34,436 nt of DNA from Xenorhabdus griffiniae. Its GTDB lineage: Bacteria; Pseudomonadota; Gammaproteobacteria; Enterobacterales; Enterobacteriaceae. Location of the stretch: NCBI RefSeq assembly GCF_015163655.1, contig NZ_JADEUF010000035.1:1-34436 (forward strand), read 5' to 3'. Made by a program: the position numbers and the translations under genes. Under the pieces are notes generated by a model. The model made no database searches, was not told the origin of the DNA, and saw only the letters and a program-made list of their open reading frames with translations. This document shows positions 1 to 34,436 of the stretch, piece after piece. Position 1 is the first letter of the stretch; every line of letters starts with the position of its first letter.

Positions 1-1679
1 CGGATCGAGCGGGACATAGGCTCCGCCAGCCTTAAGGATAGCCAGTAAGCCGACCACCATATCCAGACTGCGCTCGACACAAATCGCCACGCGCTTGTCT
101 GGACGGACGCCCCGCGCAATCAAATAATGGGCCAGCTGATTAGCGCGACGGTTCAGTTCGCCATAACTCATCGTTTGTTCTTCAAATACCACGGCGGGCG
201 CATTGGGTTGTTGCGCGGCCAGTGCTTCAAACGGGGGATGGATTAAGATTTCTGACGGGAAATCCATCTGTGTGGCATTGAAATTTGTCAGCAATTGCTG
301 TTCCGATTTTGGCATTATCGGCAGAGTGGCAATGCATTGTGTTTCATCAGTAACCATGGCCGCCAATATATTCTTCAGGTAGTCAACCATCCGTTCAACC
401 GTGGTTGAATCGAATAAATCAGCAGCATAGGTTATAGCGCCGGCTAAACCTGATTCGGTTTCAGTGAGTGATAATGTGATGTCAAAATAGGCACCATGGT
501 GAGCCTGCTCAATTGAGATGAGCTGCAAATCAGGTAATACCAGATTCTGGGCGGGTGTGTTATTCAAGGTCAGCATTACCTGAAAAATGGGACTGTAGCT
601 TAAGTTACGTTCAGGCTGGAGTGCCTCCACCATCTGTTCGAAAGGCAGATCCTGATGAGCATAGGCGGCAAGTGATCGTTCGCGAACTTGTGCGAGCAGC
701 TCCGTGACATTGAGGCCATCATTAAATGTGACACGTAAGGCCAGCGTATTGACAAAGAAACCTATCACGCCTTCAAGTTCATGGTGTGGGCGATTGGCGA
801 CTGGGGTGCCGATAACGATATCGCTCTGACCACTGAGTCGGGCCAATACGATACTCCAGGCACTCAATAGGGTCATAAACAAGGTGCAGTTATGGCGTTG
901 TCCAAGTTCTTTAAGTGATACCAATAACGCGGTATCAAACTGGAAAGAGATCTGGTCACCCGCATAGGTTTGTATGGCTGGACGCGGCCGATCGGTGGGT
1001 AATGTCAGTAAGGCTGGCGCGTCTTTAAGCTGGGTACACCAGAAATCACGTTGTGTTTCCAGAGGCGTTTCTTTTTGCTGAGCATGTTGCCAGACCGCAT
1101 AATCCGCATACTGGATGGGGAGTGGTGGTAAAGGATTTTCTTCGCTCTCAAGCGCTGCACGGTAGAAAACACCCAGTTCTCGTACCAGCACACCAAGCGA
1201 CCAGCCGTCAGTGATAATATGATGCAGGGTCAGCAGCAAGATATGTTCTTCGTCTGCCAGTTGCAGCAGTTGACCACGAATAAGTGGCCCTTGGACGAAA
1301 TCAAAAGGTGTTTGGGATTCGCGTTCGATAAGCTCGGTAACACGGCGGGTATGCAAGGCCGGATCAAGCTGGCACAGGTTGTGGCAGGACAAGGTAAAAC
1401 CGAGGTCAGCAGGTTCAATGTGTTGGTAGGGTTGTCCTTCAATCAATATAAAGCGAGTGCGCAGGCTTTCATGGCGAGCAACCAGACGGTCAAGGGCAAT
1501 CACTAACGCATGACGATCCAGTGAACCGCTCAGGCGTAGTGCCGCAGGTAAATGGTAGGCTTGACTCGCCGCCGGATCGAGCTGACCGAGGAACCATAAA
1601 CGTTGTTGCGCAAAGGAGAGAGGCAGTGGCTGGTTGCGATCCGCAATGGGAATAACGGTATGAGTCGTTGTAGCCATGT
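1..1679 (-). other. Module M11: LCL C - A (truncated by window edge)
   Basis: A complete LCL C domain starts near 1625 (SFAQQRLWFL) and has HHIITDGWS near 1210. The A domain begins near 260 and is cut after GGAYVPLDP at position 1, before any specificity residue, so its substrate cannot be read. The preceding linker (TTTHTVIPIADRNQPLP) matches the linker at the right edge of the window, supporting the view that gene 1 also continues upstream into a T domain. The alternation predicts a dual C/E domain next, beyond the left edge. Confidence 0.85.
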
Positions 1680-4600
1680 TAGTTAACGTATGCGCTAATG
1701 CCATTAGAATCGGTTGGTCAAAGAGCGTCTGTAACGGTAACTCCCGTGCCAGCACCTGACGGATACGCGCAACAAGTTGGACGGCAAGCAGAGAGTGTCC
1801 ACCCAGCTCAAAGAAATGATCATGACGGCCAACCTGTTCCAGCCCCAGTAAGTCTCGCCAAATTTGGGCCAACGCAGTTTCTATTTCACCGACGGGGGCT
1901 TCATAGCTGCGCGTCACGACGGCAGCAGCATCCGGCACAGGGAGCGCCTGCCGGTTGAGTTTGCCGTTAGGCGTTAACGGAAAAGTCGCTAACGTGACAA
2001 AAGCACTCGGCAGCATATAGTCGGCAAGGTGTTGAGCGAGTTGCTGACGCAATTCAGCGGGCAGTAGTTCAGCACCATTTCGTGGACGCAGATAGGCAAC
2101 CAACTGTTTTTGCCCTGCTTCATCTTCGCGGGCGATCACAACCGCTTCGCGCACCCCATCACACTGCATCAGTTGTGTCTCGATTTCGCCCAATTCAATG
2201 CGAAAGCCCCGCAGCTTGACCTGAAAATCATTGCGGCCGAGGTATTCGATATTACCATCGGGCAGCCAGCGGCCAAGGTCACCGGTTTTATACATACGTG
2301 CGTCTGGCTCTGAAGAGAATGGATCGGCAAGAAAACGTTCGGTAGTCAGTTCCGGTTGGTTGAGATAACCGCGGGCCAGGCTGACGCCCGCGATATAGAT
2401 TTCCCCTGTGACACCAAGGGGGACGAGTTGTCCGTGAGGGTCCAGAATATAACTTTGGCTATTGGCGATCGGGCGACCAATAACGGAAACTTCCGGTACA
2501 CCTGCCTGAGCAGAATATTCATACCAAGTGGCATCACCATTGATTTCAGATGAACCATAAAAATTCAGGAGACGGAGCCAGGGGTAATCTGTCACTACCT
2601 GTCGGGCTAACTCAGGTGCAAGCCGTTCTCCGCTGCAAATCAACGTCCTGACTGATTTGAGATGAATTCGATTATCATGATCCTGTATTAAAAGTTTTAA
2701 TAGTGAAGGTACAACGACCAGATAGTTAACATTAAAACGCTGCAAACCTGCACTGAACTGGCTGGGATCTTTCACTTCATAGTTATTGAAAACCACCAGT
2801 TTGCCACCTGCCAGCAGTACACCCAACGTTTCAGTGATTGAATCAACAAAGCTGATACTGGTTTTCAGCGCCCCGATTAATGGCGGAATCGCGATGTCTC
2901 GGACGAACCACAAGAGCCGATTGCATAGGGCTAGATGACTACTCATGACTCCTTTGGGCAGGCCAGTGGAGCCAGAAGTATAAACAACATAGGCCAGATG
3001 ACGGGGAGTCAGGCCAGATACTTCTGGGTTGTGATCTGGCTGCATTTCCATGCTGTCATCTTGGATATCAAGCAGGAGGAGAGGAACAGCATCGGTTGAC
3101 TCAGTACCTGTAAAAATATCAAGCCAGGCTAGTTGGGTCAGTATCGCTACCGGTGCTGAATCCTCAAGCATATAGGCCAGCCGTTCGGCCGGGTAAGCCG
3201 GATCAAGCGGCACATAAGCCCCTCCCGCTTTCAGGATAGCCAGTAAACCGACCACCATCTCTGGGCTGCGTTCGACACACATAGCGACACGATCGTCTGG
3301 GCGTACACCCAACATGATTAAATGATGCGCCAGACGATTGGCACGGCGATTCAGTTCACCATAGCTGAGTGACTGTTCACCGTATACTACGGCGATATCA
3401 GCGGGGTGCTGTACTGCTTCGATTTCAAACAGTTGGTGGATCAGGACATCCTGCGGAAAATCGGCTTGTGTGGCATTGAAGTCTGTCAGCAGTTGTCGTT
3501 GCTCCAGAGCAGGCAGGATCGGCACGTGCAGAATGGGTTGCTGCGGATTATGGATAAGTGCATCAATAAGACCACTGATAGCAGTGACCAGATAATGAGT
3601 TATACGTGCCGGATCAATATTCGTCACAGTTTGGGCAGTTAAATGGAAACCAACGCCCATATCATCTACCGATAGCGTGATTGGATAGTTGGTTCGCTCT
3701 TCCGCTGCCAGGATGCGGATACCCGCCCAGACCGAACTGGCTGTTTCTATCTCACCCGATTGACTATGACGATAATTCAATAACGCACTGAACAGCGGCA
3801 TTGGTTGGGGTACGCCACTGCATCGTTGTGCCAGCGATAACGGTGCCTGTTCATGTTCTAATAACCGAGTCAGATTGTGGTAGGTAGCCTGTACCACTTC
3901 TTGCACGCTAAATCCGGTCAGCGTAATCCGTATCGGCAGCGTGTTGATAAACATGCCCAATATTCGGTTGGCTCCTGTGATCCCTTGCAAACGTCCCAAT
4001 AATACTGAGCCAAAGACCACATCGTGGTGACCACTGGTTTGAGCCAACACTTGCGCCCACGCGACATGAAACAGGACGCCAGGACTGATACCTAAACGGC
4101 GAGCCTGAGAACGAATCGCCTTTGCCAGCGTGGGATCAAGCGACAGGCTGTGTTCGTTGAGAGTCCGATTATCGCTTGCTACGCTGAGTACCCCGTAAGG
4201 AGCGGTTGGCTCAGCAATATCAGCCAGCTGGTCACGGAAATAGGTTTCATGCTCTGCTACTGGCACACTTAATGTCCGGGCAATAAAGTTACGATAGGGC
4301 AGAGCAGTAGGCAGCATGGCGGCATTTCCCTGCAACACGTGGGCAATCTCAGCGAAAATCAGCTCCAGTGTCATATGGTCACTGACCAGATGATGAAAAC
4401 GCAAAGATAACAACCATTCATCGTGTACGGGATCATGGGCGATATCTGCGGCAAACAGCGGCGCACGGCTTAAATCGAGGCGATACTGGCGTGGATCTGT
4501 GTAGTTACGTAATTGTAATGGCATTGGTTGGGATAATACGTCGTCTTCCGTGGACGGGGTGAAGACATTGATATGCAGCGATGCCTGACGCCAAACTACC

Positions 4601-7600
4601 TGAACGGGCTGGGCCAGATCTTGCCAATAGGCGGCAGTTCGCAGAATATCATGGCGATCGATAATGTGTTGCAGCGCGGCTAAAAAGGCATCAAGCCGTT
4701 CGCGGGTATCGAAAGCGAGCAGGCTTTGCAGCAGATAATCATCACCTTGTGTCTGTAATAAGTGCTGGAAAAGAATGCCTTCCTGTAACGGCGCCAGAGG
4801 ATAGATATCCTGCACATTGGCGACCCCTCCTGACACAGTCGCGACAATGGCATCAATCTCGTCCTGGGACAACGAAACCAGTGGCAGCATATCTGGCGTA
4901 ATGGAAGTACAGCCTTCGGGGATAAGCTGGGGTGGCGTTTCAAAAGCGCAGGGATTGTCTTGAGATGTCAGAATGGCTTGCGCCAGCTCACTTAAGATTG
5001 GGGTCGCAAACACACTGCGCACGTCAAGTCGCCAACCAAGGTTATGCAGTTGTTCAATCAGGTTGACTATCAGCAATGAGTGTCCGCCGAGTTCAAAGAA
5101 ATGTTCATGACGACCGACCTGTTCCAGTCCCAGCAAATCTTGCCAGATCCGGGCTAAAGCCGTTTCTATCTCTCCGACCGGCGTTGCATAGCCGCGAGTG
5201 ATCACCGCAGATGTATCGGGGACAGGCAGGGCCTGCCGGTCGAGCTTGCCATTAGCATTCAGTGGGAAGGTGTCCAATGTCACAAAAGCGCTGGGTAACA
5301 TATATTCGGCCAGGTGTTGGGCGAGTTGCTGGCGTAATTCGGCCGGTATCAGTTCGGCACCCGCCAGCGATCGCAGATAAGCCACCAGCCGTTTCTGCCC
5401 TGGCTCATCTTCACGGGCAATAACCACCGCTTCACGTACACCGTGACATTGCATCAGTTGTGCCTCGATTTCCCCTAATTCAATGCGAAATCCACGCAAC
5501 TTGACCTGAAAATCATTGCGGCCGAGGTATTCGATATTGCCATCAGGCAGCCAACGGCCGAGATCACCGGTTTTGTACATACGTGCGTTCGGTTCTGAAG
5601 CGAAGGGATCGCTTAAGAAGCGCTCGGCAGTGAGTTCAGGCCGATTCAGGTAACCGCGGGCCACACCGGCACCGGCGATATAAATTTCGCCGGTAACTCC
5701 AAGGGGAACAAGTTGTCTGGCCGCGTCAAGGATATAGATGCGGGTATTGGCGATGGGACGACCAATATGAGAAACAACATTTGTTGTCCGATTCATGCGG
5801 GTCCAGGTCGAATACGTTGTCGTCTCCGAAGGGCCATAGAGATTGCAGATATCCTCTACACCAGAATGGGTAAACAGATGTTCGACAATATGGGGTTTCA
5901 GCGCTTCCCCCGCCAGATTAATGGCTTTAACGGTGGGGGGAATGGCATTTGTCTCGCTCAAATGCGCGATGGCCGATGGCACCGTATTAATCAGGCTGAT
6001 CGCCTGTTCTGTAGCAGCAGATTTGGCAGCGATTAACGACAGGGTATCAGCAACAATATGAACCGTACCGCCAGAAATCAGTGGCGCAAAACATTCGTAC
6101 ACGGACAAATCAAAATTAAACGAAGTCGCAAACAGAGTATGAGCCAATACTTCGGGGCGAAAAGCCCGTTGGGCCCAGGTCAGGAAATTCACGGTATTGC
6201 GATGCGCAATGGCAACCCCTTTGGGTGATCCGGTCGAACCTGAGGTGTAGATCACATAAGCCAAATGATTTGATGTTAAACCCAGTGCCTGAGCGTCGGG
6301 ATTGGCTATCGATTGACTTAAGCGGTATTGATTGTCACTGCTGAGTAGATTGTCGATAAAGACCGTAGCGGCGGAACTGGTCAGTCTGTCGGTGAATTTT
6401 TTCTGCGTGATGACTACGACGGGAGTCGCATCCTCAAGCATATAGGCCAATCGGCTGGTTGGGTAAGCGGGATCGAGCGGGACATAAGCACCCCCCGCTT
6501 TAAGAATAGCCAGTAACCCCACCACCATTTCTAAACTGCGTTCGACACAGATAGCGACTCGATCATCTGGATTTACCCCTAATGTAATCAAATGATAAGC
6601 CAGATGATTGGCATAGTGGTTCAATTCCCCATAGCTAAGAGACTGATCGCCACATACTACCGCTGTTGCATTGGGCGTTTGTGCAGTTTGCATTTCGACC
6701 AATTGATGGATCAGGGCGTCCTGGGGGAAATCGGCTTGAGTGGCGTTGAATTCCACCAACAATTGGTGCCGCTCCGAGGCTGACAATATTGGCAGGCTGG
6801 CAATAGTCTGTTCGGTTTCGCTTGTCATTGCCACCAGTACCCGTTTCAAATAGCTGACCATCCGTTCTATCGTCGAGGAATCAAACAGATCAACGGCATA
6901 TTCCAGCTCGCCAAACAAACCAGATTCTGTTTCGGTCAGCGATAAGGTCATATCGAAGTGGGTACTGTGGCGTGCTTGTTCAATTTGGCTGAGTTGCAAG
7001 CCAGGTAACGTCAGGGTCTTGGCGGGCGTATTGTTTAGAGCCAACATCACCTGAAAGATCGGGCTGTAGCTTAGGCTACGTTCAGGCTGGAGTGCTTCCA
7101 CGACCTGTTCAAACGGCAGATCCTGATGGGCGTAGGCAGCAAGTGCCCGTTCCCGCACCTGGTCAAGCAGATCCGTTACATTAAGGTCATCATTGAGAGT
7201 GACACGTAAGGCCAGCGTATTGACAAAGAAACCAACCAGCCCCTCAAGCTCACGGTGTGGACGGTTAGCAACTGGCGTACCGATGACGATATCATCCTGT
7301 CCACTGAGTCGGGCGAGTACAATACTCCAGGCTGCCAGTATAGTCATAAACAGAGTCGTGTGATGCCGTTGTCCAAATGACTTAAGTGATGCCAGCAAGG
7401 TCGCATCAAACTGAACAGGCACCTGTTTACCTGCATAAGTGGGTACGGAAGGTCGTGGCCGATCGGTGGGTAATGTCAGCAAGGCTGGGGCGCCCTTAAG
7501 TTGCGTACACCAAAAATCGCGTTGTTTAGCAAGGACAGTGTCTTGTAACCACTCACGTTGCCAGACGGCATAGTCAACATACTGAATGGGGAGTGGCGGC

Positions 7601-8214: not shown

Positions 8215-8225
8215 GTTATGCCTTA
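8215..8225 (-). promoter_or_regulatory. RBS of gene 3 in the 11-nt gene 2/gene 3 gap
   Basis: AAGG at 8224-8221 is 6 nt before ATG 8214 and lies directly after the gene 2 TGA (8228-8226). This matches the AAGG-6 nt-ATG arrangement of gene 2. There is no room for a promoter or terminator. Confidence 0.75.
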
Positions 8226-11200: not shown

Positions 11201-11609
11201 CTGGCGTGGCAGGGATGAATTCGTGGATAGTCAGCTGCGCCTGACGCCAAACCACCTGAACTGGCTGTTCCAGTCCTTGCCAATAAACGGCCGTGCGCAG
11301 GATATCATGGCGGTTAATAACCTGTTGCAAGGCCGCCAGAAAGCTCACAAGACGATCGCGAGAATTGAACGCGAGCAGGCTCTGCAACAGATAGGTATCC
11401 CCCTGTGCCTGCATTCGGTAATGGAACAGAATTCCTTCCTGCAACGGGGCTAGTGGATAAATATCCTGTACATTACTGGCTCCGCCGGAAACGGTAGCAA
11501 CGATGGCATCAATTTCAGCTTGAGAAAGCGAAACCAATGGCAGCATATCGGGGGTAATGGCCGTACAATCTTCAGGGATCAGGTTGGGGGGGACGACAAA
11601 GGTGCTGCC
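8226..11609 (-). other. Module M8: dual C/E (variant signature) - A (Val-like) - T - docking tail
   Basis: The domain opens with DIYPLAPLQ near 11465 and then reads HYRMQAQGD at about 11400-11433. Three consecutive positions of the HHLL half are changed, while GD is kept. The HHxxxD condensation motif (HHLVSDH) is intact, so peptide bond formation should continue. The A domain has FDASTWE near 9515 and NGYGPTETTTF near 9230, with code D-A-W-W-L-G-G-T-F-K (Val-like). The terminal T domain is LGGHSLLIAQL, followed by an acidic tail ending EELMAILGGDNNK. Confidence 0.85.
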
Positions 11610-14888: not shown

Positions 14889-14905
14889 ATTAAACCTTGT
14901 CATTA
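14889..14905 (-). promoter_or_regulatory. Gene 1/gene 2 junction with RBS and alternative starts
   Basis: The stop TAA (14905-14903) shares its last A with a possible ATG (14903). AAGG at 14898-14895 lies 6 nt before the preferred ATG at 14888. GGAG (14915-14912), inside the gene 1 coding end, lies 8 nt before ATG 14903. Either way translation of gene 2 is probably coupled to termination of gene 1. Confidence 0.7.
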
Positions 14906-26900: not shown

Positions 26901-29900
26901 CGTTCAGGCTGGAGCGCTTCCACCACCTGCTCAAAGGGCAGATCCTGATGAGCATAAGCGGCGAGCGCTCGCTCCCTAACCTGAGTCAGCAGGTCAGTGA
27001 TAGTGACGGGATCATTCAGGCTGACGCGTAAGGCCAGTGTATTAACGAAGAAACCGATTAATCCTTCAAGTTCATGGTGTGGTCGGTTAGCGACAGGGGT
27101 ACCGATAACGATATCATCCTGACCACTCAGCCGGGACAATACAATACCCCAGGCACTCAGCACAGTCATAAACAAGGTAGTGTTATGGCGCTGTCCAAGT
27201 TTTTTCAATGATGCCAATAAAGCGGCCTCAAACTGTACAGGCACTCGACCACCGACAAAAGTTTGTGTCGCCGGACGCGGGCGGTCGATTGGGAGAGACA
27301 GTAAAGCCGGTGCGTCTGCAAGCTGAGTACACCAGAAATCGCGTTGTGCAGTGAGGGTGGCTTCTTGCAACCATTTACGTTGCCAGACCGCATAATCGGC
27401 GTACTGGATCGGCAATGGCGGCAAGGGGACATCTTGGCCGTCGAGGATGGCGCGATAAAGCACACTGAGTTCATGCATGAGTATACCGATGGACCAGCCG
27501 TCAGAAATAATATGATGCTGGGTAAGCAGCAAGACGTGCTCTTCGTCTGCCAGTTGCAGCAAGTGACCGCGGATTAGCGGGCCTCGGGTAAAGTCAAAAG
27601 ACGTTTGTGCTTCAAGGGCGATCAAATCAGCAACATGGACGGAGTGCGTTTCTGGTGCCAGCGAGCGTAAGTCTTGGTAAGACAGGGCAAAGTTAATGTC
27701 AGTTGGTTCGATGTGCTGATAAGGCTGGCCGGAAACCAGCACAAAGCAAGTGCGCAAGTTTTCATGTCGGGCGATCAATTGGTCAAATGCACGGATTAAG
27801 GCCGGACGATTAAGTTGACCGATCAGGCGTAATGCCAAAGGAATATGATAGGCCAGACTGGCCGCTTGATCGATCTGACTCAGGAACCACAATCTTTGTT
27901 GAGCAAAGGACAGAGGTAACGGTTGGTTGCGATCAGTAACAGGGATTGTTATTTGGGCTATAGCTGAAGCGCCATTAAGTGTTTGAGCCAGGTCTGTCAA
28001 TATGGGTTGATCAAAGAGCTGTTGGAGTGACAAATTTCGTGCCAAATCTTGGCGTACATGTGCGACGAGTTGGACGGCAAGCAGGGAATGACCACCCAAT
28101 TCAAAGAAATGATCGTGGCGACCTACTTGTGCCAGTCCGAGTAACTCTTGCCAAATCTGAGCCAGAGCGATTTCTGTCTCACCGACGGGGGCTTCGTAGC
28201 CGTGAGCGACTACGGCTGACAGTTCAGGAGCAGGCAGGGCCTGACGGTTGAGTTTGCCATTGGGCGTCAGCGGGAAGGACGTCAACGTGACAAAAGCACT
28301 GGGTAACATATAGTCAGCGAGATACTGGGCGAGTTGCTGGCGCAGTGCAGCGGGTTCCAGTTCAAATCCCTCTTGCGGTAACAGATAGGCCACCAGTCGT
28401 TTTCCATCTTCGCGGGCGATCACGACCGCTTCACGTACGCCGTCACATTGACTCAATCTGGCTTCGATTTCTCCCAGCTCGATACGGAAGCCACGCAACT
28501 TGACCTGAAAATCATTGCGCCCGAGATATTCGATATTGCCATCGGGCAGCCAGCGGCCGAGATCACCGGTTTTATACATGCGGCTGTTTGGCTGTGAAGC
28601 GAAGAGATCGGTCTGGAAACGTTCGGCAGTCAGTTCAGGTCGATTCAGGTAACCACGGGCTACGCCGGCACCGGCAATATAAATTTCCCCTGTCACACCG
28701 CGAGGAACGGGTTGGCCGTGTGAGTCCAGGATATAAATCTGGGTATTGGCAATCGGGCGGCCGACAGGAATGGAACGCGTCACATCAACGGGGGAACTCA
28801 GCGCATAGGTAGTAGCAAATGTTGTGGTTTCTGTTGGCCCATAGCCATTTATCAGGTGAACGGGTTGAGATTCAGCCGATTGCACCTGTTGTATCTTCCT
28901 TGGATCGAGTACATCACCGCCGATAAGCAGGTAGCGCAATTGTCCAAACAGGGGTTTGAGGCTATCGAGATATTCGTTGAATAAACCCACCGTCAACCAG
29001 AGGGCGGTGACGCGTTCCTTGATCAGTGCATCACAGAAATGTGCCGGATCGAGCAACACCGATTGTGGCACCACATGCAGGCGGGCGCCATTGAGCAAGG
29101 CGGACCAAATTTCCCAGGTCGAGGCATCAAAAGCGATATTGGCACAATGGGCGACACAGTCATTCGAATCAATATCAGCAAAGCCACTATTAACGATAAG
29201 ACGAAGAACATTACGATGTTCTATCATCACGCCTTTAGGTTGGCCGGTAGAACCAGAGGTATAGATCACATAGGCCAAATTCTGTGATGTCAGACCTAAT
29301 GCGTGTGGATTGGGGTTGTGAGTGGGTTGTGCCGCCCAAAACGATTCTTGGGTATCAAGCAATACGGTAGGTATCAGGTTGTTTAATCTGCTAACTTGTA
29401 TTGTCTGGGTCAGCAGAACCACAGGCTCTGCATCTTCAAGCATATAAACCAGTCGTTCAGTCGGATAGCTTGGGTCAAGTGGCACGTAAGCCCCGCCAGC
29501 CTTGAGAATAGCCAGCAAACCAACCACCGTTTCCAGACTGCGTTCGGCACAGATGGCAATTCGATCATCTGGACGCACACCCAACGCAATCAGGTAATGG
29601 GCCAACCGATTGGCTCGGCGGTTAAGTTCGTCATAGCTCAGGCATTGCTCTGCAAACACGATGGCTGTTGCATCGGGATGATGTTTCACCTGGGTTTCGA
29701 ATAGCTGGTGGATCAAGGCATTTTGTGGAAAATCTGCTTGGGTGGCATTAAAGTCCACCAACAGTTGTTGCCGTTCTGACACGGGTAAAATGGATAGCTC
29801 TTGGATTAATCGTCGTGGTTTGTGAGCCAAAGCGTCAACTAATCCACTGATAGCGGTCGCCAGATAAGTAATTATGCGTGTCGGATCAATACTTGCCACC

Positions 29901-32900
29901 GTTTGTGCGGTCAGGCGGAAACCGACGCCCATATCATCTACCGATAAGGTTATCGGATAGTTAGTCCGCTCCTCAATAGCAACGATACGCATATCTATTT
30001 GAGGTATTTCAATGACATTAGCTTCGTCGCCCTCGATAATTTGGCTGTGACGGTAATTGAGTAGCGTACTGAACAGGGGTATTGACTGTGCCACACCGCT
30101 ACAACGTTGGGCCAGTGCTAATGGTGCTTGCTCGTGTTCCAGCAGTGTCGTTAAATTGTGATAGGTAAGCTGTACCAGCTCCTGCACGCTATGATCAGCC
30201 AGGGAAATTCGTATCGGCAAGGTATTGATAAACATCCCCAATATTCGGGAAGCGCCTGCACCTCCCTGTAATCGGCCTGATAATACGGAGCCAAAGACCA
30301 CATCATCGCGGCCGCTGGTTTGTGCCAGCACTTGCGCCCAGGCGACATGGAACAGGACACCTGAACTGACTCCCAGACGGCGAGCTTGAGAACGTATTGC
30401 CTCCGCCAGAGCAGGATCGAGTGAGAGATGGGCTTCGACGATCGGTTCATTATCATCCTGCATTGAGAGTACACCGAAGGGGGCTGTCGGTGCGTCGATA
30501 TCCGCCAGTTGAGAACGGAAATAGGCTTCATGCTCAGTACCCGGCACACTTAAGGTCTGAGCGATAAAATTGCGGTAGGGCAACGTTGCCGGCAGGGTAT
30601 CAGCATAACCCCCTTGTATTTGGGCAATTTCGGCAAAAATCAGCTCAAGTGTCATATGGTCACTGACCAGATGATGGAAACGCAGAGAGAGCAACCATTC
30701 ATCCTGTGTCGGATCATGGGCGATATCAGCAGCGAATAGCGGAGCACGGCTCAAATCGAGGCGATGCCGACGCGGGTTGGTATGCTCCTGTAGCTGGGAC
30801 AGGACGTTATCTGCCGTGTCAGGAACGAAGGTATTGATATACAACGGTGCCTGGCGCCAGACTACCTGAACTGGCCTTATCAATCCTTGCCAGCAGGCCG
30901 CGGTACGCAGGATATCGTGGCGGTCAATGACTTGTTGGAATGCGGACAGGAAGGTGTCAAGACGCTCACGAGTTTCAAAAGCAAGCAGGGTTTGTAACAG
31001 ATAAGTGTCACCTTGTGTTTGGCGCAAGTGATGGAACAGAACCCCGTCTTGTAACGGTGCCAATGGATAAATATCCTGTATATTGCTGGTCCCGCCAGGA
31101 GTTGCGGCAACAATGGCATCAATCTCGGTTTGGGACAATGAAACCAGTGGCAGCATATCAGGCGTAATGGCCGGGCAATCGGCAGGGATACGGTTAGGCG
31201 GCACCACGAACGTGTCAATATCACTTGTCATTGCCTGTGCCATCTCAGTCAGGACAGGTGAGGAGAACACACTGCGAACATCAAGCTGCCAGCCGAGGCT
31301 GTATAGCTGTTCGATCAGGCTGACAATCATTAATGAATGACCGCCAAGCTCAAAGAAATGGTCATGACGGCCGACTTGTTCCAATCCCAAGAGATCTTGC
31401 CAGATCTGCGCCAGAGCGATTTCTACCTCGCCATGTGGCGCTTCATAACCACGTGCGATCACTGAAAACGCATCAGGGGCGGGAAGGGCTTGACGGTCAA
31501 GTTTACCATTGGCAGTCAGCGGGAAAGTGTCAAGTACCACAAAGGCACTGGGTAGCATGTATTCAGCGAGGTATTGCGCAAGTTGTTGGCGCAGTTGTGC
31601 GGGAAGTAGCTCAACGCCGTTCTGAGGTCGCAAATAGGCGACGAGTCGTTTTTGTCCCCCCGTGTTTATCTCTTCGGTATTTCCATAAACAGTATCAGTA
31701 TCTTCACGGGCAATCACTACTGCTTCTTGCACACCATAGCACCGCATCAATTGGGCTTCGATTTCGCCCAGTTCAATGCGGAAGCCACGTAGTTTAACCT
31801 GAAAATCATTGCGGCCGAGGTATTCGATATTGCCATCGGGCAACCAGCGGCCGAGGTCGCCGGTTTTGTACATACGGGCGTCGGGATCTGAGGAGAACGG
31901 ATCAGTGAGAAAACGTTCTGCGGTCAGTTCAGGGCGATTCAGGTAACCACGGGCAACCCCAGCGCCGGCAATATGTATTTCCCCAATAACACCAAGTGGT
32001 ACAGGCTGAGTATGTGCATCCAAAATATAAATCTGGGTATTGGCAATCGGGCGACCGATATGGTTGGCAAATCCGGTTGCCCGATTCATCCGCGTCCAGG
32101 TCGAATACGTCGTGGTTTCAGAAGGACCATACAGGTTGCACACATTCTGTACGGCAGAGTGAGAAAATAAATGTTCAACAATGTGTGACTTTACTTTTTC
32201 TCCCGCTAAATTGACCGTCCGAATATCCATGGGTAGCGCATTGGTTTCCACCAGCTGAGCGATAGCCGATGGCACGGTGTTGATAAGGCTGAGTGATGGT
32301 TTTGGGTTGGCTGAACTTGTATTGACCAGTGACAGTATGTCAGTGACAAGGTGAACCGTACCACCAAGGAGCAGAGGGGCAAAGCATTCGTATACCGACA
32401 AATCAAAATTCAGGGAAGTAGCAAAAAGGGTGTGTGCCAACTCCTCCTGACTAAACGTCTGTTGTACCCAGGTCAGGAAATTCACGGTATTGCGGTGTTC
32501 GATTGCCACGCCTTTAGGCAAACCTGTAGAGCCTGATGTGTAGATCACATAGGCCAGATGGCGTGAGGTGAGTCCCAGTGCTTGTGCGTCGGGATTATAA
32601 ACTGGCAGAAAAGGTTCTTGGCTGCTGAGGACGTTATCGAGCAAAACGGTGGGTATCGTACCAGCCAGCCTGTCAGCAAGTTTTGTTTGGGTCAGTATTA
32701 TTCGCGGCGCTGAGTCTGCAAGCATATACATCAGCCGTTCGGTTGGATAGGCCGGATCAAACGGCACATAGGCACCACCTGCTTTAAGAATACCAAGTAA
32801 ACCCACCATCATGTTCAGGTTGCGTTCAACACAAATTGCTACCCGATCATCCGGACGTACCCCTAAGGCTATAAGATGATGAGCCAGTCGATTAGCCTGG

Positions 32901-34436
32901 TGGTTCAATTCATCATAACTGAGTGTCTGAGCTCCACACACTATCGCTGTAGCTGTGGGACTGTTGATCACCTGCGCTTCAAATAGTTGGTGGATCAGGG
33001 CGTCTTGCGGGAAGTCTGCTTGAGTGGTGTTAAAATTCACCAACAGTTGTTGTCGCTCTAAAGCTGACAATATCGGCAAAGTCGCAATGGCTTGGGTTGC
33101 ATCGGCTGCCATTGCTGCCAGTGCTCGTTGCAGATAGCCGACCATACGTTCAACAGTTTCGGCATCGAACAGATCAGAGGCATATTCCAGTCCGCCAACC
33201 AAACCAGAGTCGGTTTCAGTTAACAACAACATTAAATCGAAATGGGCGCTATGGGTCGCCAGTTCAACTCGGGAGATCTGCAAACTGGACTGTGTTTGGC
33301 CTTGAGCCGGCGTATTATCTAAAGCCAGCATGACCTGAAAGATTGGGCTATGGCTCAGGTTACGTTCAGGTTGTAATATTTCCACCACCTGCTCGAAGGG
33401 CAGATCCTGATGAGCATAGGCGGTTAGCGCCCGCTCCCGGACCTGTGCAATCAGTTCAGCCACACTGAGATCGTCATTGAATGTAACGCGTAAGGCCAGT
33501 GTATTGACGAAGAAACCAACCAACTCCTCAAGCTCACGGTGCGGGCGATTGGCGACAGGGGTGCCGATAACAATATCATCCTGACCACTAAGCCTGTTGA
33601 GTACAATACTCCAGCCAGCCAGTAGGACCATAAACAAGGTACTGTTATGGCGTTGTCCTAGTTCCTTAAGTGAATTTAATACTGAGGCATCAAGGTGGAA
33701 AGGCACTTGTCTGCCGACATAAGTTTGTACTGCTGGGCGTGGCCGATCAGTGGGGAGTGATAATAACGCGGGCGCATTTTCAAGTTGCCGGAGCCAGAAG
33801 TTTCGCTGTGCAGTAAAACTTTCTCCTTGCAACCATTCACGCTGCCAGACGGCATAATCAGCGTACTGAATGGGAAGTTGCGGCAAAGGATCATTGTGGT
33901 CATTAAGGACAGCGTGATAGAAAACACCCAGTTCGCGTATCAGCACCCCAATAGACCAGCCGTCAGCAATAATGTGGTGCAGGGTGAGCAGTAACACATG
34001 TTCCTTATCTGCCAGTTGCAGCAGTTGACCACGGATCAAGGGGCCTTGAGCAAAATCGAAAGGTGTTTGGGCTTCGAGTGTCGCGAGTTCAGTTACCCGC
34101 TCGATATGCAGAGCAGGATCGAGTTGACGCAAGTCCTGACGGGACAGGGCAAAACCGATATCCGCCGGGGCGATTTGCTGGCTGGGTTGGCCTGCAACCA
34201 GCACGAAACGTGTCCGCAGACTTTCATGCCGAGCTATCAGACGATCAAGTGCGGTGGTCAGGGCATGATGATTAAGTTGCCCCGTCAGGCGTAGTGCTAC
34301 AGGAATATAATAGGCTTGACTCGCCGCCGGATCGAGCTGACCGAGGAACCATAACCGCTGTTGAGCAAAGGATAAAGGCAAGGGCTGGCTGCGATCAGCT
34401 GGGGAGATCACGGTTTGTGTGAGAGTGGCCGTTTCT
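14903..34436 (-). CDS. Gene 1: giant NRPS, six visible modules (5' end outside window)
   Basis: This is a multimodular NRPS of 6510 visible residues (roughly 0.7 MDa), open without a stop from the right window edge to TAA at 14905-14903. Domain order with approximate visible residue numbers: C 17, A 476, T 1031; dual C/E 1119, A 1567, T 2112; C 2172, A 2629, T 3174; dual C/E 3262, A 3715, T 4271; C 4329, A 4794, T 5346; dual C/E 5438, A 5881, T 6432; C-terminal docking tail from about 6480. All six T domains keep the LGGHSL phosphopantetheine serine, and all six A domains keep the A10 lysine in NGKLD. The first start-like codon in view (GTG at 34411) lies inside a linker that matches the T-to-C linkers within this protein (TQTxI-PADR), so the gene very probably begins further right with at least one more module. 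It acts in the cytosol and hands its peptide to gene 2. I infer an Ala-Val-Leu-aliphatic-Thr-Val segment with residues 1, 3 and 5 inverted. Confidence 0.95.
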   Translation of the reverse strand, partial: ETATLTQTVISPADRSQPLPLSFAQQRLWFLGQLDPAASQAYYIPVALRLTGQLNHHALTTALDRLIARHESLRTRFVLVAGQPSQQIAPADIGFALSRQDLRQLDPALHIERVTELATLEAQTPFDFAQGPLIRGQLLQLADKEHVLLLTLHHIIADGWSIGVLIRELGVFYHAVLNDHNDPLPQLPIQYADYAVWQREWLQGESFTAQRNFWLRQLENAPALLSLPTDRPRPAVQTYVGRQVPFHLDASVLNSLKELGQRHNSTLFMVLLAGWSIVLNRLSGQDDIVIGTPVANRPHRELEELVGFFVNTLALRVTFNDDLSVAELIAQVRERALTAYAHQDLPFEQVVEILQPERNLSHSPIFQVMLALDNTPAQGQTQSSLQISRVELATHSAHFDLMLLLTETDSGLVGGLEYASDLFDAETVERMVGYLQRALAAMAADATQAIATLPILSALERQQLLVNFNTTQADFPQDALIHQLFEAQVINSPTATAIVCGAQTLSYDELNHQANRLAHHLIALGVRPDDRVAICVERNLNMMVGLLGILKAGGAYVPFDPAYPTERLMYMLADSAPRIILTQTKLADRLAGTIPTVLLDNVLSSQEPFLPVYNPDAQALGLTSRHLAYVIYTSGSTGLPKGVAIEHRNTVNFLTWVQQTFSQEELAHTLFATSLNFDLSVYECFAPLLLGGTVHLVTDILSLVNTSSANPKPSLSLINTVPSAIAQLVETNALPMDIRTVNLAGEKVKSHIVEHLFSHSAVQNVCNLYGPSETTTYSTWTRMNRATGFANHIGRPIANTQIYILDAHTQPVPLGVIGEIHIAGAGVARGYLNRPELTAERFLTDPFSSDPDARMYKTGDLGRWLPDGNIEYLGRNDFQVKLRGFRIELGEIEAQLMRCYGVQEAVVIAREDTDTVYGNTEEINTGGQKRLVAYLRPQNGVELLPAQLRQQLAQYLAEYMLPSAFVVLDTFPLTANGKLDRQALPAPDAFSVIARGYEAPHGEVEIALAQIWQDLLGLEQVGRHDHFFELGGHSLMIVSLIEQLYSLGWQLDVRSVFSSPVLTEMAQAMTSDIDTFVVPPNRIPADCPAITPDMLPLVSLSQTEIDAIVAATPGGTSNIQDIYPLAPLQDGVLFHHLRQTQGDTYLLQTLLAFETRERLDTFLSAFQQVIDRHDILRTAACWQGLIRPVQVVWRQAPLYINTFVPDTADNVLSQLQEHTNPRRHRLDLSRAPLFAADIAHDPTQDEWLLSLRFHHLVSDHMTLELIFAEIAQIQGGYADTLPATLPYRNFIAQTLSVPGTEHEAYFRSQLADIDAPTAPFGVLSMQDDNEPIVEAHLSLDPALAEAIRSQARRLGVSSGVLFHVAWAQVLAQTSGRDDVVFGSVLSGRLQGGAGASRILGMFINTLPIRISLADHSVQELVQLTYHNLTTLLEHEQAPLALAQRCSGVAQSIPLFSTLLNYRHSQIIEGDEANVIEIPQIDMRIVAIEERTNYPITLSVDDMGVGFRLTAQTVASIDPTRIITYLATAISGLVDALAHKPRRLIQELSILPVSERQQLLVDFNATQADFPQNALIHQLFETQVKHHPDATAIVFAEQCLSYDELNRRANRLAHYLIALGVRPDDRIAICAERSLETVVGLLAILKAGGAYVPLDPSYPTERLVYMLEDAEPVVLLTQTIQVSRLNNLIPTVLLDTQESFWAAQPTHNPNPHALGLTSQNLAYVIYTSGSTGQPKGVMIEHRNVLRLIVNSGFADIDSNDCVAHCANIAFDASTWEIWSALLNGARLHVVPQSVLLDPAHFCDALIKERVTALWLTVGLFNEYLDSLKPLFGQLRYLLIGGDVLDPRKIQQVQSAESQPVHLINGYGPTETTTFATTYALSSPVDVTRSIPVGRPIANTQIYILDSHGQPVPRGVTGEIYIAGAGVARGYLNRPELTAERFQTDLFASQPNSRMYKTGDLGRWLPDGNIEYLGRNDFQVKLRGFRIELGEIEARLSQCDGVREAVVIAREDGKRLVAYLLPQEGFELEPAALRQQLAQYLADYMLPSAFVTLTSFPLTPNGKLNRQALPAPELSAVVAHGYEAPVGETEIALAQIWQELLGLAQVGRHDHFFELGGHSLLAVQLVAHVRQDLARNLSLQQLFDQPILTDLAQTLNGASAIAQITIPVTDRNQPLPLSFAQQRLWFLSQIDQAASLAYHIPLALRLIGQLNRPALIRAFDQLIARHENLRTCFVLVSGQPYQHIEPTDINFALSYQDLRSLAPETHSVHVADLIALEAQTSFDFTRGPLIRGHLLQLADEEHVLLLTQHHIISDGWSIGILMHELSVLYRAILDGQDVPLPPLPIQYADYAVWQRKWLQEATLTAQRDFWCTQLADAPALLSLPIDRPRPATQTFVGGRVPVQFEAALLASLKKLGQRHNTTLFMTVLSAWGIVLSRLSGQDDIVIGTPVANRPHHELEGLIGFFVNTLALRVSLNDPVTITDLLTQVRERALAAYAHQDLPFEQVVEALQPERNLSYSPIFQVMLALNNTPAQALALSDIQCIPIEQAHPNAHFDLTLSLTETEAGLVGDLAYAADLFDAATIERMVGYLTHVLTVMAGDETQPIATLPMLPASERQQLLVDFNATQMDFPQTALIHQLFESQAEQCPDATAVVYEDQTLSYGELNHRANQLAHYLITLGVRPDDRVALCAERSLEMVVGLLAILKAGGAYVPLDPIYPAERLAYMVEDAAPVALLTQSALSRSGWLAQFNALPTVLLDNPEPYLTTQPADNPDAQALGLASHHLAYVIYTSGSTGQPKGVMIEHYSLCNLITTQQHALALTPASRVLQFASNSFDACIWECCMALMAGGRLYLAKRANLLPGAILSGYLTEQAISHVLLSPTALAAMDSLPDTLQTLLVGGEACPSTLVKRWSPGRQMLNAYGPTEITVCATLYACPCAEDSSTDNPPPIGRPIANTQIYLLNTHYQPVPLGVIGEIYIAGAGIARGYLNRPELTAERFLADPFSSNPNARMYKTGDLGRWLANGNIEYLGRNDFQIKLRGFRIELGEIETKLTQCDGVREAVVVAREDQGQKRLVAYLLPKESAELVPAKLRQQLARHLADYMLPSAFVTLASFPLTPNGKLDHQALPEPDASAIVMHRHEPPMGETETTLAQIWQELLGLEQVSRHDHFFELGGHSLMIVSLIEELRKLGWQLDVRSVFAAPILIDMAQNLQRDTHTFIVPPNLIPEGCTAITPAMLPLVSLSQAEIDAIVNTVSDGASNVQDIYPLSPLQEGILFHHLLQAQGDTYLLQIILAFDTRKRLEAFLGALQQVIDRHDILRTAVYWQDLAQPVQVVWRQAPLTVREFIPISTNDIPAQLQVHTDPRQHRIDLTQAPLFTADITLDPAQNEWLLALRFHHLVSDHMTLDLVFAEITQILRGNAEALPTTLPYRNFIAQILNVPSSVHEDYFREQLADIDEPTAPFGVLAIPKNAPNDTKPVSVAKSRLLLTPERAEAIRVQSRRLGVSPGVLFHVAWAQVLAQTSGRDDVVFGSVLLGRLQGNAGADRILGMFINTLPIRISLGGRTVQEIVQDTYHNLTTLLGHEQAPLALAQRCSGVAQPLPLFSALLNYRHSQTDKGDAIDTIWTDMRLVAAEEQTNYPITLSVDDLGDNFQLTALTVTEIAPERTTAYLETAINGLIDALIHNPQQLILNVPILPEPERQQLLVGFNPTQVDFPQNALIHQLIEAQALQRPHATAVICEGQTLSYVELNQHANRLAHHLITLGVRPDDRVAICIERSLEMVVGLLAILKAGGAYVPLDPTYPIERLAYMLRDSAPVVLLTQTAQVNKLPDTVPTILLDSLCDRNETLLTTQPTDTPNAQALGLTSRHLAYVIYTSGSTGQPKGVMVEHRNVVSLIINNGFADIGPDDCIAHCANVSFDAATWEVWAGLVHGARILLIPEKTLLQPTDFGEYLSAEGVSALFLTTALFNQYASLIAPALSGLRYVLFGGEQGDTRPAIRLRTEHSPKHLLNMYGPTETTTFATAYEIPVLEDEDVEGKGRKIPIGHPIANTQIYILNQQGQPVPSGVAGEIYIAGAGVARGYLNRPELTAERFLADPFSSEPDARMYKTGDLGRWLPDGNIEYLGRNDFQVKLRGFRIELGEIEARLTQCDGVREAVVMAREDEPGQKRLVAYLLPQEGIELVPAELRQQLAQHLAEYMLPSAFITLDTFPLTPNGKLDRRALPAPDLSAVVTRHYEAPEGETEIILAEIWQDLLGLEHVGRYDHFFELGGHSLLAVQLAARIRQQLAHELPLQQLFEQPRLIDLARALTDTSTIAQTNIPVADRSQLLPLSFAQQRLWFLTQLNPAASLAYHIPMALRLSGQLNRPVLIRALDLLVARHENLRTRFVLVSSQPCQQIDPADRGFSLSYQDLRALTPEAHINRIAELTDLEAQTPFDFSQGSLIRGHLLQLADEEHILLLTQHHIISDGWSIGVLLREFSALYRAALDSQDDPLPPLPIQYADYAVWQREWLQESAIAKQRDFWCSQLEGAPALLTLPTDRPRPAVQSYVGRRLPVNVDADLLTALKRLGQRHRTTLFMTVLSAWSIVLARLSGQEDIVIGTPVANRPHHELEGLIGFFVNTLALRITLDNSSRVADLLAQVREHAFAAYAHQDLPFEQVVEALQPERNLSYSPIFQVMLALNNTPQHISRQALALPELQLTHIEQEHYSAHFDLTLSLAENEDGRLVGELAYATDLFDATTIERLVGYLTNVLTAMVADETQLIGALPLLPESERRQLLVEFNATQQNFPQDALIHQLFEAQAAQHPEAIAAVFEEQTISYGELNRRANQLAHYLIASGVRPDDRIAICIERGLAMVVGLLAILKAGGAYVPLDPAYPAERLAYVLEDAAPVALLTQATLRNKLDSALPTVLLDNICDSQTAFLTMQPTDNPDAQALGLTSRHLAYVIYTSGSTGTPKGVMVEHANVIRLLAATQSRFQFDDKDVWTLFHSFAFDFSVWELWGALAYGGRLVVISAECARSPQLFYSLLCREHVTILNQTPSAFRSLIAAQGVAKHALRCIIFGGEALELHTLIPWVTRNPTAQTRLVNMYGITEITVHATYRELTEADIYSGRGSLIGQPLADLRIYILDPHGQPAPLGVAGEIYIVGDGVTRGYLNRPELTAERFLTDPFFLNSAARMYKTGDLGRWLPDGNIEYLGRNDFQVKLRGFRIELGEIEAKLEQCHGVRDAVVLAREDEPGQKRLVAYLRPRAGVELVPAELRQQLAQHLADYMLPSAFVTLETFPLTPNGKLDRQALPAPDLSAVVARGYEAPVGETEIALAQIWQKLLGLKQVSRHDHFFELGGHSLMIVSLIEELRNLGWQLDVRSVFVAPVLIDMAQTVRRDANTFVVPPNLIAEECTTITPAMLPLVSLSQTEIDAIVNTVPGGGANVQDIYPLAPLQEGILFHHLLQTQGDNYLLQSVLAFDTRERLNAFLAALQLVIDRHDILRTAVCWRELAQPVQVVWRQAPLKVSIFTPTTTGDVVTQLKRHTDPRQHRLNLNQAPLFAADIAPNPAQDEWLLALRFHHLVSDHLTLELIFAEIALILQGKTERLPAVLPYRNFIAQTLATPTADHEAYFRTQLADIDEPTAPFGVLKVHPDNDCVVEARLPIAPDLAKAIRSQARRLGVSPSVLFHVAWAQVLAQTSGRDDVVFGSVLLGRLQGGAGAERVLGMFINTLPMRVSLTNYTVQEVVHNTHHGLMMLLEHEQAPLALAQRCSGMPQSMPLFSSLLNYRHGQSAETGGLDTIWAGIRTLAAEERTNYPVTLSVDDLGVNFQLIAQTVAGIDPTRVTNYLVTAISGLIDALVHDPQRLVRDISILPATERQQLLVDANATQVDFPQDQLIHSLFEAQAARHPDTLAVVFDGQTLSYGELNCRANQLAHHLISLGVHPDDRVAICIERSLDLIVGLLAILKAGGAYVPLDPTYPSERLAYMLEDSEPVALLTQTTQADKLSSFVPMSMSIVILDAQELILTEQPPHNPDIHALGLMSHHLAYVLYTSGSTGQPKGVMVEHRNVLRLIINNGFTDIGPNDCIAHCANIAFDASTWEIWSALLNGARLHVIPQSILLNPVHFCDSLIEGKISALWLTVGLFNEYLDNLSPLFEQLRYLLVGGDVLDPRKIQQVQLAEFQPAHLINGYGPTETTAFATTYAITSPVDVTRSIPIGRPIANTQIYILDMPGQPVPYGVAGEIYIAGAGVARGYLNRPELTAERFLPDPFSSQPDARMYKTGDLGRWLPDGNIEYLGRNDFQVKLRGFRIELGEIETRLNQCDGVHEAIVLPREDEPGQKRLVAYLLPQEGIELAPAKLRQQLAQYLADYMLPSAFVTLDTFPLTPNGKLDRQALSAPDLAAVVTQGYEPPQGEIETALAQIWQDLLGLERISRYDHFFELGGHSLMVVRLITRIQDKFLVSIPLTALFTSPTLTEQATAILSAQMNAVAENELESIQNELDSLSAEELMAILGGESK
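14906..14990 (-). other. C-terminal docking tail of gene 1 protein
   Basis: After the last T domain comes an acidic, predicted helical tail (repeated ELxS/NELDSL) ending SAEELMAILGGESK. Position at a protein end and similarity to the gene 2 tail support a docking role towards the basic N-terminal helix of the next synthetase. The role is inferred. Confidence 0.65.
14906..18269 (-). other. Module M6: dual C/E - A (Val-like) - T - docking tail
   Basis: The dual domain starts near 18125 with DIYPLAPLQ and an intact HHLLQTQGD. The A domain has FDASTWE near 16170 and NGYGPTETTAF near 15890. Its code D-A-W-W-L-G-G-A-F-K differs from M2 and M8 only at position 330 (Ala for Thr), and Val is the likely substrate. 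The T domain (LGGHSLMVVRL, RIQDKFLVSIPL) differs from the internal T domains and resembles the terminal T domain of gene 2, as expected for one that must dock in trans. The protein ends in ELDSLSAEELMAILGGESK. Confidence 0.85.
18270..21489 (-). other. Module M5: LCL C - A (Thr) - T
   Basis: The LCL domain begins near 21450 with SFAQQRLWFL and has QHHIISDGWS. The A domain has FDFSVWE near 19440, VTILNQTPSAF near 19300 and NMYGITEITVH near 19155. The code D-F-W-N-I-G-M-V-H-K is the canonical Thr code, the most certain specificity call in the window. The T domain (LGGHSLMIVSL) precedes the M6 dual C/E domain, so D-allo-Thr is expected. It is the only polar side chain predicted in the readable part of the peptide. 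Confidence 0.9.
21490..24789 (-). other. Module M4: dual C/E - A (branched aliphatic) - T
   Basis: This domain opens with DIYPLSPLQ and HHLLQAQGD near 24640, an intact dual C/E signature. The A domain has FDAATWE near 22670 and NMYGPTETTTF near 22390. The code D-A-W-F-L-G-M-T-F-K lies between Leu (DAWFLGNVVK) and Ile-type codes, so I call only a branched aliphatic residue. An acidic loop (EDEDVEGKGRK) just before the GHPIANTQ segment is shared only with M7, marking these two A cores as recent copies. The T domain is of the LGGHSLLAVQL class. Confidence 0.85.
24790..27974 (-). other. Module M3: LCL C - A (Leu-like) - T
   Basis: The LCL domain starts near 27920 and contains QHHIISDGWS. The A domain (about 26560-25050) has FDACIWE near 25930 and NAYGPTEITVC near 25670. 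The code D-A-W-L-L-G-A-V-C-K is nearest to a Leu code (DAWLYGAVMK, 8 of 10); an aromatic residue is a weaker alternative because the last positions resemble the Phe code of GrsA. The A core (MALMAGGRLYLA, VLLSPTALAAM) is not shared with any other module in the window. The T domain is the dual-C/E-preceding class (LGGHSLMIVSL), so this residue should become D. Confidence 0.8.
27975..31219 (-). other. Module M2: dual C/E - A (Val-like) - T
   Basis: The condensation domain opens with DIYPLAPLQ near 31075, followed by HHLRQTQGD. This fits the dual C/E signature HH[IL]LxxxxGD except for Arg at the fourth position. The C3-equivalent motif is HHLVSDH. The A domain has FDASTWE near 29120 and NGYGPTETTTF near 28840, with code D-A-W-W-L-G-G-T-F-K, closest to the Val family DAxWxGGTFK (for example GrsB Val, DAFWIGGTFK). 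The T domain is LGGHSLLAVQL, the class that precedes LCL domains here. The domain should link D-residue 1 to L-Val 2. Confidence 0.85.
31220..34436 (-). other. Module M1: LCL C - A (Ala-like) - T
   Basis: The C domain begins near 34387 with SFAQQRLWF and has HHIIADGWS. The A domain spans roughly 33010-31480, with FDLSVYE near 32400 and LYGPSETTTY near 32130. My reading of the code is D-L-Y-N-N-A-L-T-Y-K, one residue from the Ala code DLFNNALTYK known from microcystin synthetase; Cys codes (DLYNLSLIWK) share the first four positions, so Ala is preferred but not proven. The T domain (LGGHSLMIVSL) is of the class seen before dual C/E domains. The A domain has an extra loop of about 12 residues between AREDT and GQKRLVAYL (about 31650-31700). 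The residue should be inverted by M2. Confidence 0.85.

Follow-up and report, generated by a model that had tools for sequence, protein, structure and literature searches.

Alternating condensation domains in Xenorhabdus griffiniae lie in a probable xenoamicin synthetase operon

Three synthetase genes and their modules

The window, i.e., the whole stretch of DNA that was analyzed, comprises 34,436 bases and is the entire contig C202 of a 4.22-Mb genome assembled in 272 contigs. Prediction of open reading frames showed that it is occupied by three overlapping NRPS frames, all on the reverse strand, which are called xabA, xabB and xabC here in line with the assignment proposed below. The xabA frame (14903..34435, minus strand) lacks its 5' end and encodes modules 2-7 of 13 in the 6510 aa that fall into the window; the full XabA protein has 7588 aa in G013, a closed genome from this species, and 7600 aa in Xenorhabdus sp. 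BG5. The xabB frame (8226..14903, minus strand) is complete and encodes modules 8-9 in 2225 aa. Over the best segments, its product shares 95% identity with XabB of Xenorhabdus sp. BG5, 83% with that of X. thuongxuanensis, 73% with that of X. khoisanae and 69% with that of X. mauleonii DSM 17908. The xabC frame (1..8229, minus strand) lacks its 3' end and encodes modules 10 and 11 and the start of module 12 in 2743 aa; full XabC has 4857 aa in the closed genome.

The ends at which the three proteins meet carry docking stretches. XabA closes with a stretch of the SLiM type that ends in ELDSLSAEELMAILGGESK (14903..15004, minus strand), and XabB opens with one of the beta-hairpin type that begins with MTRFNMNINELKRAVLEKRLAEQLK (14796..14903, minus strand). 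The C-terminal docking stretch of XabB ends in ELDLMSTEELMAILGGDNNK (8226..8327, minus strand) and the N-terminal stretch of XabC begins with MIRHNMNRDNLKRAVLQKKIKEQL (8122..8229, minus strand). The XabA/XabB and XabB/XabC docking pairs are termed SLiM-beta-hairpin in PMC9113145, from which the naming was adopted.

Modules were numbered such that the first C domain of the window belongs to module 2. The odd window domains are accordingly those of the even-numbered modules, and the even ones are those of modules 3, 5, 7, 9 and 11. All modules lie on the minus strand. Module 2 (31940..34384) has an LCL C domain and the A-domain code DLYNNALTY- (Ala). Conversion of its residue to the D form is predicted for module 3 (28646..31078), which has a dual C/E domain (FHHLRQTQGD, HHLVSDH) and the code DAWWLGGTFK (Val). 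They are followed by module 4 (25469..27922; LCL C domain, DAWLLGAVCK, Leu), module 5 (22181..24649; dual C/E domain with FHHLLQAQGD, DAWFLGMTFK, Leu/Ile) and module 6 (18956..21451; LCL C domain, DFWNIGMVHK, Thr), whose Thr would provide the ring-closing hydroxyl. Module 7 (15695..18133), the last of xabA, combines a dual C/E domain (FHHLLQTQGD) with the code DAWWLGGAFK (Val). Within xabB, module 8 (12294..14771) has an LCL C domain and the code DAWFLGVTFK (Leu/Ile), and module 9 (9036..11471) a dual C/E domain with HY for HH (FHYRMQAQGD) and the code DAWWLGGTFK (Val). Within xabC, an LCL C domain and the code DLYNNALTYK (Ala) make up module 10 (5647..8097), and a dual C/E domain with QH for HH (FQHLLQTQGD) and the code VDTVISFGDK (beta-Ala) make up module 11 (2362..4815). 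Module 12 (1..1629) is cut by the contig end and retains an LCL C domain and the first 77 residues of an A domain, which reads Pro in the closed genome of the same species and in BG5. Read in order, the ten A-domain codes give Ala, Val, Leu, Leu/Ile, Thr, Val, Leu/Ile, Val, Ala and beta-Ala, the eleventh A domain being the one cut by the contig end. All residue names are predictions from the codes. The codes agree with the residues named in the preliminary description of this DNA, namely Ala, Val, Leu/Ile, a single Thr and beta-Ala.

Classes of the C domains

The classes of the C domains were assigned from a FastTree phylogeny with a midpoint root. It comprised 395 C-family domains; 65 loci contributed 289 of them, and the xab clusters together with the set of the genome itself the other 106. 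Non-E matches had to cover at least 330 model positions, and four of 71 loci (L012, L013, L015 and L016) were left out in favor of longer stretches of the same clusters. The labels used to read the tree represent domain context, not experiment. Of the window domains, the six odd ones all grouped with LCL domains (clade of 228, support 0.96) and the five even ones all with dual C/E domains (clade of 80, support 1.0). The alternation of LCL and dual C/E domains that had been read from the letters alone was thus borne out by phylogeny, with none of the even domains in an LCL or DCL clade. The dual C/E clade contained 59/59 domains with the motif HH[ILMVF]xxxxGD and 0/22 context-labeled DCL domains; the latter were all found in the adjoining DCL clade (22/22; 37 domains, support 0.75). 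This pairing agrees with the excerpted text of Rausch 2007 (PMC1894796), which gives DCL domains as the group nearest to the dual C/E domains and HHxxxDH and HH[I/L]xxxxGD as the motifs of the latter. The E clade (25 domains, support 1.0) consisted of context-labeled E domains only and included none of the 11 window C domains in this tree of 395. Five of the 30 context-labeled E domains were located elsewhere (three in the LCL, one in the DCL and one in the dual clade) and are probably mislabeled.

The same division was apparent in the profile scores. Against PF00668 the odd domains reached 373-390 bits and the even ones 176-184 bits, in strict alternation over all 11 C domains, which is one of 462 possible orders of six plus five domains. 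Among solved structures, an odd domain was best matched by Txo2/Txo1 and TycC and an even domain by McyB, matches that alone do not define a subtype. The active-site motif HHLVSDH was present in all five even domains and the N-terminal His motif was exact in three of them, with HY in module 9 and QH in module 11. The T domains directly in front of the dual domains belonged to a distinct sequence type in five of five cases, compared to none of the five other T domains in the window.

The operon in related genomes and its predicted product

Contig C202 is linked at its ends to contigs C2 and C17 by shared sequence of exactly 111 bp. Contigs C17, C202 and C2 were co-linear both on BG5 (94.9% identity for C202) and on the closed genome of the same species (96.9%), and this mapping left two gaps of ∼1.5 kb each, corresponding to the A-T portions of module 1 and module 12. 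The module 1 and module 12 stretches of the closed genome are 97.9% identical over 1737 bp and include an exact block of 562 bp, a near-repeat that is enough to break a short-read assembly and that accounts for the contig breaks and the shared 111-bp ends. The 13-module order of the genome itself was obtained through the co-linear contigs, with modules 1 and 12 partly unassembled. Thirteen modules on three NRPS proteins, divided 7+2+4, were present in all four complete clusters (the closed genome, BG5, X. khoisanae and X. mauleonii); in X. thuongxuanensis modules 2 to 12 lie on a contig that is cut at both ends. The C types were identical in the four complete clusters: starter, L, dual, L, dual, L, dual in the first protein, L, dual in the second and L, dual, L, L in the third. 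The starter C domains of contig C17 and of the four complete clusters (5/5) were placed in a 15-domain starter clade with a support of 0.99. As module 1 has a starter C domain and modules 12 and 13 both have LCL domains, the alternation in the complete synthetase is not total. The long D-L chain of the preliminary description holds up to module 11, where the alternation ends, and the sequence on either side of the window (contigs C17 and C2 and the relatives) completes a 13-module operon.

The last module, on contig C2, gave a thioesterase match with two stretches. Directly after this thioesterase-bearing end of xabC stands a PF00282 decarboxylase gene, xabD, whose product has counterparts with 98% identity in the closed genome, 94% in BG5, 81% in X. 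khoisanae and 79% in X. mauleonii. At a threshold of at least 75% identity over at least 510 residues XabD was found in 21 of 30 genomes of the genus, and one more genome had two partial copies; xab-related genes are said to belong to the core Xenorhabdus pangenome in an excerpt of PMC9177418. One Xenorhabdus genome has two complete genes related to xabD (81 and 83% identity; G012:C2, at 2382.5 and 2428.1 kb), which lie 46 kb apart and perhaps represent two xab-type lines.

XabABC and XabD are attributed to Zhou et al. 2013 (cited in PMC6305712, PMC12668312 and PMC8163882). The excerpted description of XabABC from X. doucetiae (PMC12668312) gives a product of 13 residues that is acylated (C4-Pro start) and closed to a ring at Val13, with XabC adding the last four residues, D-Ala10, beta-Ala, Pro and Val13, and with xabD located downstream for beta-alanine. 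X. mauleonii is a listed xenoamicin producer (PMC6305712). The present locus resembles these two systems in its 13 modules, the four last residues from XabC, the beta-Ala/Pro/Val end, the downstream decarboxylase, the Ala10 predicted as D and the docking pairs A/B and B/C, and the codes of X. mauleonii yield the mass of xenoamicin A; the likeness to X. doucetiae XabABC, as well as that to the class III cluster discussed below, rests on the published descriptions. It differs from X. mauleonii XabABC at module 8, where the code is of the Leu/Ile type here and of the Val type there (B/C type, not A), and in the dual motif of module 11, which reads QH here and HH there. Three NRPS genes and one decarboxylase were found here, as in the excerpts of PMC12668312, whereas XabABCD plus XabE, one NRPS gene more, are described in those of PMC6305712.

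The class III xenoamicin XAM-1320 of Xenorhabdus sp. KJ12.1 differs from xenoamicin A in 7 of 13 residues, is D/L alternating by Marfey analysis except for its C-terminal part, and forms a beta-helix by NMR, with a pore view mentioned in a figure legend (excerpts of PMC8163882). Its assembly line is similar to the present one, with 13 A domains and C/E domains that produce alternating D/L residues except at the C-terminus. Judged by the xenoamicin family, which alternates up to the C-terminal part, the D/L-alternating, beta-helical hydrophobic peptide that had been anticipated is the right kind of product.

The codes of the closed genome and BG5 read Pro-Ala-Val-Leu-Leu/Ile-Thr-Val-Leu/Ile-Val-Ala-betaAla-Pro-Val, with DLYNNALTYK, VDTVISFGDK, DVQFIAHVVK and DAWWLGGTFK of XabC representing Ala10-betaAla11-Pro12-Val13. 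Pro1 and Pro12 were taken from these relatives, since the Pro12 code of the genome itself is unassembled. Departures from this order are a Val-type code for module 8 in X. mauleonii and a Leu/Ile-type code for module 9 in X. khoisanae. The Thr code was located at module 6 in six of six clusters, which conflicts with an excerpt of PMC12668312 that puts the ring Thr at position 8 and yet also Leu/Ile at position 8. From the codes, a butyryl group adopted from the literature and a lactone, [M+H]+ was calculated to be 1300.8239 for X. mauleonii, 1314.8395 for this species (closed genome) as well as for BG5, and 1328.8552 for X. khoisanae. The theoretical values printed in Table 3 of PMC8042232 are 1300.8238 for xenoamicin A1,2,3 and, among the B-type xenoamicins from X. 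khoisanae J194, 1314.8395 and 1328.8552, a match that cannot separate Leu from Ile or Ala from beta-Ala because these are isobaric. From its codes, the product of this species is predicted to be a B/C-type xenoamicin.

Taken as a whole, the window very probably represents the central part of a Xenorhabdus xabABCD operon encoding the xenoamicin synthetase, with assembly and product as proposed in the following. The starter C domain on contig C17 would load a short acyl group onto Pro1, and XabA (modules 1-7), XabB (modules 8-9) and XabC (modules 10-13) would pass the chain on via their docking ends, adding Ala2-Val3-Leu4-Leu/Ile5-Thr6-Val7, then Leu/Ile8-Val9, and then Ala10-betaAla11-Pro12-Val13. 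Inversion of the preceding residue by each dual C/E domain (modules 3, 5, 7, 9 and 11) would make residues 2, 4, 6, 8 and 10 D, and the chain would alternate up to betaAla11, with Pro12 and Val13 as L residues. The thioesterase end of XabC would close the lactone onto the Thr hydroxyl, and XabD, a PLP-dependent decarboxylase with putative aspartate specificity, would supply beta-alanine. In this scheme the order of the domains, the classes of the C domains, the codes, the co-linearity with whole operons and the agreement in mass for the relatives are results of the analysis, and we infer the residue identities, the inversion at each dual domain, the ring closure and the acyl group. The linear chain that had been envisaged earlier would be replaced by an N-acylated peptide closed as a lactone.

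The stereochemistry of this product would be different if the synthetase made a xenoamicin but inversion had been lost in the HY-bearing dual domain of module 9, the QH-bearing one of module 11, or both, in which case position 8 and/or 10 would be L and the alternation would be shorter than the domain count implies. The HY variant of module 9 occurred in all six clusters, and QH was found in module 11 in four of the six (the window, the closed genome, BG5 and X. thuongxuanensis), the other two, X. khoisanae and X. mauleonii, having HH. A survey of Pseudomonas E/C domains lists 74 that are experimentally inactive in epimerization, but describes this motif as having no striking difference between 394 active domains and the 74 inactive ones (PMC10531924), and the HY and QH variants are therefore not read as a loss. 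D-Ala10 is moreover stated for native xenoamicins (excerpt of PMC12668312), namely those of X. doucetiae, whose motif may differ. The distinct T-domain sequence in front of dual domains is also kept in modules 8 and 10, and overall we consider a loss of inversion in these two modules unlikely.

Alternating C types distributed over three proteins would also fit an undescribed kolossin-like class, in which several proteins together form the synthetase for a long linear D/L peptide, an idea raised in the preliminary description. The kolossin A synthetase of Photorhabdus is reportedly one giant 15-module protein that makes a formylated pentadecapeptide. It shares the alternating D/L logic, whereas the present system has three proteins, 13 modules and, as proposed, an acylated lactone; a single giant protein of 15 modules was not what the operon contained. 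Linear gramicidin is likewise an alternating D/L hydrophobic beta-helix, but its synthetase is said to use separate E domains and a formyl start, compared to 0/11 E-clade domains here. The window is co-linear with the 13-module operons of named relatives, X. mauleonii included, and the codes, the decarboxylase neighbor and the mass all fit xenoamicin, while the starter C domain and the thioesterase match point to an acylated, released peptide. An undescribed class is thus highly improbable, and the match of the operon to xab rules out a kolossin-like novelty: the arrangement that seemed new is that of the published xenoamicin synthetase XabABC, so that published xenoamicin work already covers the alternation, the division of the synthetase into several proteins and the helical shape of the product.

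A second synthetase beside xabD and the place of the locus in its family

The minus strand of contig C2 (5908-46538; L005-L007) encodes another NRPS line, termed the second line here, which has 12 modules (7551 + 5992 aa) and stands between xabD, directly upstream of it, and a luciferase-like gene. In BG5 the luciferase-like gene directly follows xabD and the second line is absent from that place. Its C types are starter, L, dual, L, dual, L, dual in the first subunit and L, dual, dual, dual, dual in the second. The same line was found in the closed genome (G013:C1, ∼1958.8-1996.2 kb; L095-L097) with 11 modules (7+4; 7554 + 4904 aa), and the codes of the two genomes differ at A1, A2 and A3 of the first subunit and at A1 and A2 of the second, which indicates that module number and content of the second line vary within the species. 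A 4.3-kb probe of the second line gave a match of at least 81% over at least 3.3 kb in at least 5 of 30 genomes of the genus, including the genome itself. No paper on the second synthetase appeared among the literature listed for it, which carries little weight. A further NRPS was observed on contig C269 (L008), with four A domains that have variants of DTSDIGSVIK (one of them cut) and one with DVWHLSLIDK; it may be the PAX line, which is rich in Lys.

Over 2.5 kb (contig C2, coding-strand 15707-18258) the second line was 91.7% identical to xabA of BG5, and this similarity suggests that exchange between xab and the second line may have taken place. The docking ends are also alike, with 31/36 N-terminal residues as in XabB and 29/38 C-terminal residues as in XabA. 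With docking ends this close, XabA could hand its D/L heptapeptide to the second subunit of the neighbor. That XabA feeds this subunit while the first subunit of the neighbor feeds XabB, giving hybrid peptides besides xenoamicin, is a speculative idea to which we give little credence; if true, there would be two crossed assembly lines yielding hybrid peptides.

For the xenoamicin synthetase proposed here, the assignment would add one more species to an established family of beta-helical peptides. It also illustrates that the stereochemical logic of a synthetase can be deduced correctly from C-domain classes recognized by eye in the bare sequence.
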